Below are positions 16,353-19,156 of a stretch of DNA of 64,000 bases, piece after piece (position 1 is the stretch's first letter; each line of letters starts with the position of its first letter). Below the pieces are notes generated by a model. It saw only the letters and a program-made list of their open reading frames with translations, did not search any database and was not told the origin of the DNA. The DNA is from Fusobacterium varium (GTDB taxonomy: Bacteria > Fusobacteriota > Fusobacteriia > Fusobacteriales > Fusobacteriaceae), in assembly GCA_900637705.1 (NCBI GenBank), contig LR134390.1:2728001-2792000 (forward strand), given 5' to 3'. The position numbers were made by a program, and so were the translations under genes.

Positions 16353-18011
16353 TTATAGAAATTTTTTTAAATAATTATAACCATTTTCTCCACAATACTC
16401 ATATTCATAATCCATATATAATTTTGTACTATATCCAGGATGAATCATAGGAATAAAAATTTTATTTCCTTCAAATATTCTCTGATAAATTAAATCTCCT
16501 ACTATTATATCTGGATTATATTTTTCTTCCAATAATTTTAATTTTCCTTCATCTTCTATCATTTCTATTTCTTTGATATACTTATGTTGATAAGCTTTTT
16601 TCATTTTTCCAGATTTTCTTATAAAAGAAACAGCTTTAATCTCTGTCAATCCAAAATCTAATTTTAATATCTGCCTAATATTTTCTGCCATCACAGGTGA
16701 TGAAATAATCAATACTTTTCTTTCATCTATTTCTTTATATTTTATATCTTGTTTGTATTCCAGATTAAAATATTTCCCAAGTTCTTCTTTCATTTTTTCC
16801 ATGCTATATCTTCCCACAACATTTACTATTATATATGGAATATCATACTCTTTTTTCATGAATTCTGCCAGTTCTATCCCTTCATGACTTAATACTAAAT
16901 TTAATTCTGCACAAGTACTTTTTTCTATTGCCTCCAATGAAAGTCTATGAGAAAAAATACTTTGTATCTCTAATTTTAGATTTTTAATTGTTAAAAAGAA
17001 AGGTTTTAATTTTTCTATTTTTCCAAATGTTAAAGGAGTATATCCTAAAATATTCACACTATTTTTCTTTTTTTTATTTTCTTTCATAAATTTTTTTCCA
17101 AGATTTTTTAAAGCAAGAGATACTCCTGAATAATAATTAGAAAATCCACTTGTATTTAAAGATATTACAGGAAGATTTGTTTCTTTTTCTACTTTTTCAG
17201 CAATACTTTCAATATCCATGCCTATTATAGCTGGAACAACTGTTTTTATAATAACAATAAAGTCTATTTTCTTATTTTTTATCAGTACATTTTTTATCTT
17301 TTCATTCAGTTCCTTTATATCTCCAAGAAGAATTTCTATTTCTCCCATAGTACTGCAATATACAATACTTTCATTTATATTTCTTATCTCATCATAAATA
17401 ATTGGAGTTTTACATCCTCCAGGAGAAATAACAACTTTCAATATTTTAGAAGAATATAATGCTGAACAAACTCCAGAATAATCAGAAACTATTGGAGGGA
17501 TATAATGTTGTATTTTCCCTTTTGATTTTGCTTTTTTTATATTTATAATTTTCTCATTTTGATTCAATTCTTCTTTTAATTCTGTTAATAAATTTTTTAA
17601 TCTTTCTTTTGGAAATATTTTTCTCTTAGAAATTGGTCCTCTTTCTAAAACTTTTACTATTATTCCATACTCTTTTTTTATTCTTTTTATCAACAAATTA
17701 AAATCGCTACACATAAGTATATCTCCACAAGTCTTATAAATAATGATTGAATCAATCTCTTTATATTTTTCATTAATTATCTCTATTAATGATTTTTCTA
17801 AATTATTTATATGCTCTCCTGACAGCATCTCTATTTCATTTACTGGAAATGTATAAAGTTTCTCATTTTTATTTTCTCTTACTGACTCATTATATAAAAC
17901 ATTTAAACATCCTACAGGTCCTATAGAAACAATTATATTTCTTGGGATTTGTAACAATTCCTTCAGCATTTTATTTATTTCTCTATCTAAAAGGCATCTT
18001 TCTAGTTCCAT
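16353..18011 (-). CDS. Nitrogenase component 1-like oxidoreductase subunit
   Basis: 552-residue member of the NifD/NifK/BchN/BchB/CfbD superfamily, by motif reading. The core from about residue 170 carries SGVC (Cys182), PGGC (Cys200) and IVYC (Cys219). It also has KTVVPAIIGMDIE, where nitrogenases have TCPxxIIGDDI, then LPVISLNTSGFS, so the usual third cluster cysteine is Val258. Unusually, residues 25-125 look like an extra copy of the first subdomain, with IGPVGC (Cys35) and IYKTCGDILMC (Cys95, Cys101). It is downstream of the NifH-like gene (4-base gap), with no second component-1 gene, so a homo-oligomer as in CfbD is likely (inference). Expected role: ATP-dependent reduction of a small molecule, plausibly a tetrapyrrole given the B12 control. 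It is not a true nitrogenase: no nif assembly genes are present. Confidence 0.8.
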   Translation of the reverse strand: MELERCLLDREINKMLKELLQIPRNIIVSIGPVGCLNVLYNESVRENKNEKLYTFPVNEIEMLSGEHINNLEKSLIEIINEKYKEIDSIIIYKTCGDILMCSDFNLLIKRIKKEYGIIVKVLERGPISKRKIFPKERLKNLLTELKEELNQNEKIINIKKAKSKGKIQHYIPPIVSDYSGVCSALYSSKILKVVISPGGCKTPIIYDEIRNINESIVYCSTMGEIEILLGDIKELNEKIKNVLIKNKKIDFIVIIKTVVPAIIGMDIESIAEKVEKETNLPVISLNTSGFSNYYSGVSLALKNLGKKFMKENKKKKNSVNILGYTPLTFGKIEKLKPFFLTIKNLKLEIQSIFSHRLSLEAIEKSTCAELNLVLSHEGIELAEFMKKEYDIPYIIVNVVGRYSMEKMKEELGKYFNLEYKQDIKYKEIDERKVLIISSPVMAENIRQILKLDFGLTEIKAVSFIRKSGKMKKAYQHKYIKEIEMIEDEGKLKLLEEKYNPDIIVGDLIYQRIFEGNKIFIPMIHPGYSTKLYMDYEYEYCGENGYNYLKKFL

Positions 18012-18015
18012 TCCT

Positions 18016-18842
18016 TTAATCCTCTTCTCTTTCTTCCAACTGTAGTATCTGTGCTGCCAAATATTCTAATTTTTCTTCTGACAATGGCTCAGGAATAGTA
18101 TCATTTGCATCTTTTAATATTTGTTCTCCAAGTTGTTCAAAATATTTATATACTTCTGACTGTATACAATTTTCGGCCAATGTTTTCCCTTGAAGTTCTG
18201 CTTTCATTATATCCTTATTGTACGGTATCTTACCAATTATCTCTGTCATTGTCATCTCTGCAAAAAGCTCCACTGCATTAATTCTGGAATTTTTACTTCT
18301 TTGATTATATATTATTCCACCGAATTTTATACCTTTATCATAAGAAAAATTTTTTATGCTTTTCATTATATTGTTAGCTGCATATAAAGACATGAATTCA
18401 GAAGATGTTACTATGTAAATAGTATCTGCATATCTTTCTCTCATTGGTACTGCAAATCCTCCACAAACTACATCTCCCAATACATCATAAACTATAATAT
18501 CTCTTTCTTCTTCAAATACCTCCATATCTTCCAATTCTTCCATTGTTGTTATTATTCCTCTTCCAGCACAACCTATTCCTGCTTCTGGTCCCCCTGCTTC
18601 TATACATTCTATATCATTAAATCCTTTAAAAATAACATCTGCTCTTTCTATTTCATTTTTTTGTTTCAATTGATTTATAACTGTAGTAATTTTTTTCCCA
18701 TTAAATTTCTGGTAGAATCTCCTTTCGGATCACAGCCTATATGTAACACTTTTTTTCCTTTCATAGAAAAAATAGCTGACAAATTTGAGGATATTGTTGA
18801 TTTTCCAATTCCACCTTTTCCATAAATTGCTATTTTTTTCAT
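18016..18842 (-). CDS. NifH/BchL-like iron protein (frame break at 18690-18696)
   Basis: ATP-dependent reductase protein of the NifH family, 275 residues after repair. The N-terminal part (from ATG 18842) reads [15 protein letters not shown] (P-loop) and [12 protein letters not shown]. It then hits TAA at 18675 unless one A is added to the A7 run. The remainder reads [13 protein letters not shown] and [14 protein letters not shown], the two cysteines that ligate the bridging 4Fe-4S cluster, then [10 protein letters not shown]. Both nucleotide switch regions are conserved, so the protein should deliver electrons to the component-1-like partner encoded next. It is the first gene behind a cobalamin riboswitch and terminator; GGAGGAAAG lies before the ATG. 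The C-terminal 30 residues are acidic and family-atypical. Confidence 0.88.
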
Positions 18843-18861
18843 CTTTCCTCCATTTCCTAAA

Positions 18862-18905
18862 TAAAAAAATTCTCCAGTTAATAGAGAATTCTACCTTACT
18901 GGAGA
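18862..18905 (-). terminator. Riboswitch-controlled intrinsic terminator
   Basis: Minus-strand TCTCCAGT and ACTGGAGA form an 8-bp stem around a 19-base loop, followed by ATTTTTTT. It stands between the aptamer and the NifH-like start. Confidence 0.85.
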
Positions 18906-18954
18906 GTCAAATATTAAAAAACTATTTAAAAAATAGCATATTTTTATATGACCA

Positions 18955-19105
18955 TTGGTAAGTCTTCTGACTCAGCTTCATCCTACTCTCACGCCTTCCC
19001 AGTTTCCCAGTGACATAATATGATTTCGTCCACTATACAGCAGCTTGCGCTGTGGGAGATTCTCACTCCTCTTCCTCTATTAAGCTTATATGCACCTAAT
19101 CATCT
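18955..19105 (-). ncRNA. Cobalamin riboswitch (leader of the NifH/NifD-like operon)
   Basis: Minus strand shows TTAGGTGCATATAAGC, AGGAGTGAGAATCTCCC, GCTGCTGTATAGTGGACGA, CACTGGGAAACTGGGAAGG and GAAGCTGAGTCAGAAGACTT, the RF00174 core. It closely resembles the leader at 5385-5535. Confidence 0.93.
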
Positions 19106-19127
19106 TTTTTATTTAAATAACATTTTT

Positions 19128-19156
19128 ATATTACAACTTTTAAACATAATTGTCAA
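19128..19156 (-). promoter_or_regulatory. Sigma70-type promoter for riboswitch unit (d)
   Basis: TTGACA at 19156-19151, 17 bases, TAATAT at 19133-19128 on the minus strand, about 25 bases before the aptamer. It is divergent to the promoter at 19349. Confidence 0.75.

Follow-up and report, generated by a model that had tools for sequence, protein, structure and literature searches.

The described systems closest to the locus treated here are nitrogenase-like enzymes of several kinds. The dark protochlorophyllide reductase (DPOR) BchLNB works with Fe-S clusters only on a tetrapyrrole substrate, CfbCD has a single-gene catalytic component in which CfbD is one short homodimeric subunit, and the Group IV systems MarHDK and IsrHDK work with a radical S-adenosylmethionine (SAM) partner, MarB and IsrB. 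Transporter-linked nitrogenase-like clusters, also of Group IV, were reported in 2012 without a function (PMC3464626). That report gives two cysteines in the alpha and one in the beta subunit as the pattern of the Methanocorpusculum labreanum and Desulfitobacterium hafniense pairs, names the M. labreanum pair as transporter-linked as well, assigns another pattern (three and none) to the Clostridium botulinum pair, and describes linked NifH-component-1 sets with hydrogenase maturation genes in gut Firmicutes. In this review of one genomic region, we describe a stretch of 64,000 nucleotides of Fusobacterium varium (contig LR134390.1, positions 2,728,001 to 2,792,000; hereafter the window) which contains a B12-controlled operon that joins an importer with a shortened single-chain nitrogenase relative, called F below. 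As its function we favor, with a probability of roughly 0.4, an ATP-driven reductase that would use Fe-S clusters only and act on an imported tetrapyrrole, here a corrinoid.

The operon is a member of the known, functionally unexplained class of 2012. Both the operon and that class (PMC3464626) have a NifH-like and a component-1-like protein beside an ATP-binding cassette (ABC) transporter and the two-alpha/one-beta cysteine pattern, and the window differs in that only one domain of the alpha subunit remains and is joined to the beta subunit in one chain, that a cobalamin riboswitch is present and that TonB receptors are nearby. An earlier reading made from the letters of the DNA, the sequence-only reading, had spoken of an undescribed system, which is too strong given these reported clusters. 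The transporter linkage is already known; what may be new is control by a riboswitch, a catalytic chain that is both shortened and fused, and a sister class linked to IsdE- and HugZ-like proteins. A literature search covering part of the full-text literature, with subscription papers outside it, gave, among the entries listed, no title or abstract on a nitrogenase-like operon under a cobalamin riboswitch, on a nitrogenase-like system for heme, or on the fused, shortened chain and the IsdE/HugZ-linked class.

Organization and B12 control of the operon

All parts of the operon lie on the minus strand, in the order riboswitch, hairpin, NifH-like pieces, F, binding protein, permease and ATPase, and the host genome (G000) is a single contig of 3.30 Mb with many B12 genes. 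The cobalamin riboswitch (RF00174; 18941-19114) matches the whole model (67.6 bits; E 1.6e-14; gathering score 31.5), and with the importer genes on the same strand this confirms that such a riboswitch stands ahead of the NifH, F and importer genes. The span first assigned to the system, 16353-19156, misses the transporter at 13471-16337. A terminator-like hairpin (18871-18905; 18863-18905 with its T run) sits between the aptamer and the start codon, with a folding energy of -16 kcal/mol and a z-score of -3.02, and none of 200 shuffled sequences folded as well. A simple terminator scan does not list this hairpin, probably due to its long loop, and it was found by folding. In the relative G011 (locus L027) the corresponding position, after the aptamer and before NifH, is taken by a different terminator-like hairpin (-15.9 kcal/mol, z -4.39), and B12-type regulation with such a hairpin behind the aptamer is seen in two species. 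Low B12 would allow read-through past the terminator.

The NifH-like protein lies in two pieces of different frame: the first (18675-18842; 55 amino acids) carries the P-loop and matches PF00142 at profile positions 1-51 (E 7.8e-20), and the second (18016-18669; 217 amino acids) carries, by eye, both cluster-cysteine motifs and matches positions 65-267 (E 6.4e-68). The P-loop and both cysteines that had been ascribed to the iron protein are thus all present, although no single open reading frame (ORF) carries them. F (16353-18011; 552 amino acids) is component-1-like (PF00148, E 9.9e-44) and has an open frame. It is followed by a periplasmic binding protein in two frames (15274-16337, composed of 15477-16337 and about 15274-15513; Peripla_BP_2, E 8.7e-17), a FecCD/BtuC-type permease (14258-15259; PF01032, E 2.8e-83) and an ABC transporter ATPase (13471-14253; PF00005, E 1.3e-31).

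Two frame breaks within one operon raise the question of whether the system is dead here, with NifH and the binding protein as real pseudogenes. Among the 13 window genes with at least 50% match to proteins of the relatives' loci L027, L028 and L031, four lie in two frames (NifH, the binding protein, OppA and EutW), and each of the four breaks has six or seven consecutive A residues nearby, inside a segment of about 31-41 bases; in five intact same-strand genes, segments of equal length contain such runs in 4% (A7) to 15% (A6) of cases. Piece 1 of NifH corresponds to residues 1-52 of the intact G011 NifH at 90% and piece 2 to residues 49-274 at 74%; the protein is encoded in a single frame in G011 (274 amino acids) and G028 (276 amino acids), and the binding protein is intact in L027, L028 and L031. 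Because NifH is whole in relatives and unrelated genes break alike at A runs, an indel-prone assembly is the likely and simplest cause of the breaks as judged from these comparisons. Together with the open frame of F, this makes a dead system the least probable of the alternatives weighed in this text. A programmed frameshift in NifH at the A run was also considered and is rejected in view of the one open frame in G011 and G028 and of the like breaks in unrelated genes.

A shortened and fused catalytic chain

In its predicted structure F combines a single domain of an alpha subunit with a complete beta subunit in one chain, so that the label NifD-like given to it earlier has to be replaced: F is a truncated-alpha/whole-beta fusion and not NifD. 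The N-terminal part (about residues 1-160; 17532-18011) represents domain I of an alpha subunit and contains Cys35 and Cys95, and the C-terminal part (residues 168-552 and the stop codon; 16353-17510) a whole beta-type component 1 with Cys200. The AlphaFold2 model of full F (predicted local distance difference test, pLDDT, 77.4; predicted template modeling score 0.81) fits beta-type chains best, mostly across residues 168-552. For the C-terminal part the top structural match is BchB of DPOR (Z 35.0, root-mean-square deviation 3.1, 370 aligned residues), followed by methylthio-alkane reductase (Z 30.8), AnfK (30.1) and NifEN (29.7), and nitrogenase or NifEN chains reach a Z of at most 30.1 among the best 50 matches listed. 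The N domain, modeled separately (pLDDT 88.1), has alpha-type chains as its best matches, at Z 12.2-14.0 among the best 50 listed, including BchN of DPOR and NifEN (both 14.0) and NifD (13.8) at residues 55-218, which we take to be the domain holding the P-cluster ligands. These chain labels come in part from PDB names (for example 2xdq_A, subunit N; 2xdq_B, subunit B); 2xdq_A scores Z 13.1 with the N domain and 2xdq_B Z 32.3 with the C-terminal part. We know of no other single catalytic chain with such a fusion of an alpha domain and a beta subunit.

The N-terminal part aligns to the start of D subunits, and Cys35, Gly65 and Cys95 are invariant in 16 of 16 sequences. Cys200 is likewise invariant in 18 sequences and is present in all seven rows of F and its more distant relatives (F') that cover the position, and Cys6 is kept in three close orthologues and Cys182 in some rows only. 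An Fe-S cluster may thus be held between the alpha-type domain (Cys35, Cys95) and the beta-type part (Cys200 and one further ligand). At the sequence level the C-terminal part resembles, at 36-38% over 229 residues, the K-like subunit from a NifH-D-K operon of Treponema saccharophilum. On the NifD, NifK and NifE models F reaches at most 79.3 bits against a cut-off of 505.1, and on the BchB model 64.5 against 490.35; the CfbD model is not listed for F at E 1e-3 (window) or 1e-5 (G011). DPOR is accordingly the best fold for the C-terminal part and among the best for the N-terminal part, and its use of Fe-S clusters only on a tetrapyrrole is counted here as a likeness to the proposed F, whereas all Bch scores are far below their cut-offs and F is a single fused chain. 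A DPOR-type fold is what F shows, but this fold is common to the whole superfamily.

NifB exceeds its cut-off in none of eight genomes, with weak scores of 19-29 bits in four of the eight, while 2 of 14 control genomes pass; because of this, chemistry of the FeMo-co type is unlikely. In comparison with the Mo, V and Fe nitrogenases, the locus differs in its NifH and F scores below the cut-offs, in a NifH outside the nif clade (see below), and in this absence of NifB over the cut-off. The same result bears on a further alternative, namely NifEN-like cofactor assembly, in which the importer would supply a metal and NifH-F would build it into the cluster of another enzyme. For transporter-linked copies a role as metal-cofactor assembly devices has been suggested (PMC3464626), and certain relatives lie near HypF or HypD genes (L055 and L044), similar to the gut Firmicutes sets mentioned above. 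Since no NifB over the cut-off is found in the eight genomes and F is the sole PF00148 match in its genome, which leaves no second component 1 to receive the cluster, we regard such an assembly role as quite improbable.

The NifH-like iron protein

The intact NifH of G011 scores 332.9 bits on the NCBIfam nifH model (cut-off 394.35), 245.7 on bchL (345.15) and 333.2 on CfbC (402), and every listed NifH and component-1 score falls under its cut-off. Its nifH and CfbC scores are therefore equal (333 each), which together with a single-gene catalytic component is the likeness to CfbCD; the differences are a score under the CfbC cut-off and the two-part chain of F in place of the one short CfbD subunit. 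As for MarHDK and IsrHDK, no radical SAM partner was seen among the ORFs of the operon, with no search aimed at MarB or IsrB themselves.

A NifH tree of 39 rows, from which the window's own split NifH was left out, joins the iron proteins of F and F' in one clade (support 97/92). Six nif rows and one sulfur-type row, Treponema pTS2, form a separate clade (99/100); the other two of the three sulfur-type rows stand together (100/100), and Bch is also apart from the F/F' clade. The transporter-linked classes A and B, a hydrogenase-linked class and the second loci of G008 and G010 make up another clade (99/96). In this tree bchL and bchX are joined through long branches, and support for the root is low (70/77). 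The F/F' iron proteins are thus placed outside the nif clade and Bch; functionally characterised CfbC, MarH and IsrH proteins are not among the rows, and comparisons with these rest on NCBIfam scores and PDB matches.

Importer, binding protein and the IsdE/HugZ-linked class

The operon shares with BtuBFCD uptake systems a cobalamin riboswitch, nearby TonB receptors, a FecCD permease and a binding protein, and differs from them in having NifH and F within the operon and a binding protein far below the BtuF cut-off. The importer had been called BtuFCD-type, and the permease and the riboswitch agree with this; the binding protein does not, since its G011 orthologue scores 51 bits on the BtuF model against a cut-off of 234. 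The same orthologue matches PDB entry 4ovk with 437 bits. Among named PDB relatives of the binding protein the nearest is HI1472 (113 bits), presumably the molybdate/tungstate binder MolA, and iron-complex (78), nickel-binding (63) and IsdE (45 bits) proteins also outrank BtuF (42 bits), all of which weighs against a corrinoid as the ligand.

This likeness to HI1472 and to the nickel-binding protein favors another possibility, that a metal chelate or an oxyanion is imported, for example cobalt for B12, and that NifH-F reduces it and frees the metal; B12 shortage would then be read as cobalt shortage, hence the B12 switch, and CobN lies in an adjoining operon. Free metal ions, on the other hand, need neither a TonB receptor nor a nitrogenase-type reductase, and the nearest fold of F is a tetrapyrrole reductase, so that we consider this alternative unlikely, although less so than the cofactor-assembly role.

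A comparison with the sister class (class B) brings heme into consideration. Among NCBIfam models, the one that fits its binding protein best is IsdE at all six clostridial loci (two incomplete), with 125-276 bits, short of the required 298.65. In four of the six, K is followed by a HugZ-like protein (131-137 bits over a partial profile, below the cut-off of 240), in a profile search that did not cover L062 and L071. Four of these clusters (L053, L056, L057 and L060) combine NifH-D-K with both the IsdE-like binding protein and the HugZ-like protein, the nifH of L060 lying outside the contig piece, and judging from gene content they are candidate oxygen-free heme-handling systems. By analogy, imported heme could be the substrate also in Fusobacterium, with oxygen-independent heme reduction put under a B12 switch. 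No HugZ-like ORF was recognised beside the F-type loci (class F), where no profile search was made, and the IsdE score of their binding protein, 64.6 bits, falls far short of the cut-off (298.65). The window has an IsdE-like protein that is itself behind a cobalamin riboswitch, so IsdE likeness need not mean heme, and a B12 switch is an odd control for heme. Heme as the substrate in the window is hence about as improbable as cofactor assembly.

Relatives of the operon

Close orthologues of F were found in 2 of 97 further Fusobacteriota genomes (G011, 62%; G028, 54%). A direct search with F overlooked two remoter F' proteins (23-24%), those of G027 and G029, which were located via the binding protein; the counts of F relatives are therefore lower bounds. 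A scan of genome contigs with the fused proteins alone gave no relative, and with the Treponema K subunit added it gave 40 loci. A binding protein and a FecCD-type permease are nearby in 22 of 29 related loci (the window, L027, L028 and 19 of 26 others), which include near-copies (L042/L043 and L052/L054) and are not independent; NifH is out of reach in L046, L060 and L078. Of the 40 loci, L059 (from the same species as L024), L061 and L063 (of nif type in the NifH tree) and 15 unannotated Paenibacillus loci (L064-L070, L072-L077, L079 and L080) are left out of the 29. Also left out are L025, L026 and L032-L040 (of nif or sulfur type, as read in all but L037 and L039), and the second NifHDK loci of G008 and G010 (L029 and L030), which have no riboswitch and, by eye, no transporter among the listed ORFs, and whose inclusion would change the counts to 22 of 31 with an importer and 3 of 31 with a riboswitch.

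The matching locus of G010 (L031) has a different, unfused NifH-D-K with separate D and K beside importer orthologues (77-83% to those of G011), three cobalamin riboswitches, a TonB receptor and a binding protein that resembles IsdE. One of these riboswitches is separated from the nifH operon by a Y2-type transposase gene (L031, 11782-12990). The F' relatives of G027, G029 and a Phascolarctobacterium metagenome-assembled genome (L078) have the importer and no riboswitch match; L078 further has a TonB receptor and F as two ORFs, 163-1038 (minus strand) and 8545-9564 (plus strand), one adjoining nifH and the other behind the TonB receptor. In G028 a nitroreductase-family gene (PF14512; L028, 14938-15816) comes after the operon. 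L044 and L055 each have two linked NifH-component-1 sets, near HypD and HypF, respectively. In three lineages a CobW/HypB-like GTPase is found near NifH-component-1 operons (L042 at 8148, L051 at 4496 and L089 at 5245); an SBP_bac_6 protein adjoins it in all three, and L051 and L089 add a short ATPase of the ABC type.

B12-related surroundings in the window

Besides that of the operon, the window has five more cobalamin riboswitches. One (5369-5542, minus strand, 66.8 bits) heads a set of two binding proteins and CobN (3-5542, minus strand), and this CobN (3-3494, minus strand; TIGR02257, 827.6 bits against a cut-off of 822.05), which a check proposed in the sequence-only reading had named, passes its cut-off even though it is open at the window edge. 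A second riboswitch (5771-5951, plus strand, 123.3 bits) precedes a TonB receptor, permease, ATPase and IsdE-like binding protein (6087-10876, plus strand), with 144.3 bits for TonB-B12 and 170.2 for IsdE, each under its cut-off. A third (11081-11261, plus strand, 125.8 bits) belongs to a TonB-dependent receptor (11436-13427, plus strand), the convergent neighbor of the operon, which scores 155.8 bits on the siderophore model TIGR01783 and 143.5 on the B12 model TIGR01779, both below cut-off. A fourth (19395-19574, plus strand, 114.4 bits) precedes an ORF of 139 amino acids (19681-20100, plus strand) that matches neither Pfam nor NCBIfam at E 1e-3. The fifth (27607-27780) heads an oligopeptide/nickel-type transporter (22275-27780, minus strand), in which OppA lies in two frames and the permease ORFs seem, by eye, to be shortened too. 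B12 auxotrophy as the reason for uptake is unsupported, with CbiD and CobS in 15 of 15 genomes.

Proposed function and meaning

Fe-S-only reduction of a tetrapyrrole is favored because of the lack of a NifB over the cut-off and the BchB-like fold, and a corrinoid because of the riboswitch and the neighbors, namely CobN, the TonB receptors and the further cobalamin riboswitches. The earlier suggestion that the pair acts on an imported tetrapyrrole accordingly keeps part of its ground, which also includes the importer at most loci and the IsdE/HugZ-linked sister class. Several observations weigh against it. The notion that homologues always occur with a cobalamin riboswitch does not hold, as RF00174 is present at only 3 of 29 loci (window, G011 and G010), all of this genus, and there is none at the other 26, some of them incomplete, including G028 with the same fusion and the F' relatives. 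By model score both TonB receptors lack specificity for B12, at about 144 bits on the B12 model and 139 and 156 on the siderophore model, below every cut-off. The importer of G038 (70%) has neither NifH nor F beside it, CbiD and CobS in the genome mean that uptake may be a mere supplement, the frames of NifH and of the binding protein are interrupted in the assembly, and fold likeness does not reveal the substrate. Three points keep the probability given to the corrinoid reductase below one half: the binding protein resembles HI1472, the riboswitch is narrowly distributed, and the genome has CbiD and CobS.

In the corrinoid reductase as we propose it, the importer would carry a large ligand, most likely a corrinoid, into the cell. 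The NifH-like iron protein would spend ATP and pass single low-potential electrons to F, and F would reduce the ligand without a FeMo-type cofactor, as DPOR and CfbCD do with theirs. A specific guess is that the cobalt center or the ring of salvaged corrinoids is reduced for re-use. In this scheme the operon, the riboswitch, the fold, the cysteines and the lack of a NifB over the cut-off come from sequence or model, and the cluster, the path of the electrons, the substrate and the product are inferred. That the locus stands for a new branch of the nitrogenase superfamily, in which a fused single chain reduces imported corrinoids at the expense of ATP and sister enzymes act likewise on heme in clostridia, is a broader and more doubtful idea.

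Transporter-linked nitrogenase-like enzymes occur in many anaerobes without known function. The B12 switch offers a concrete guess at a substrate and a simple on/off condition, the IsdE/HugZ-linked class offers a parallel for heme, and the fused, shortened catalytic chain is a compact target for structural work. If the corrinoid reading is true, nitrogenase-type chemistry would take part in the salvage of B12 and related rings by gut-type anaerobes.

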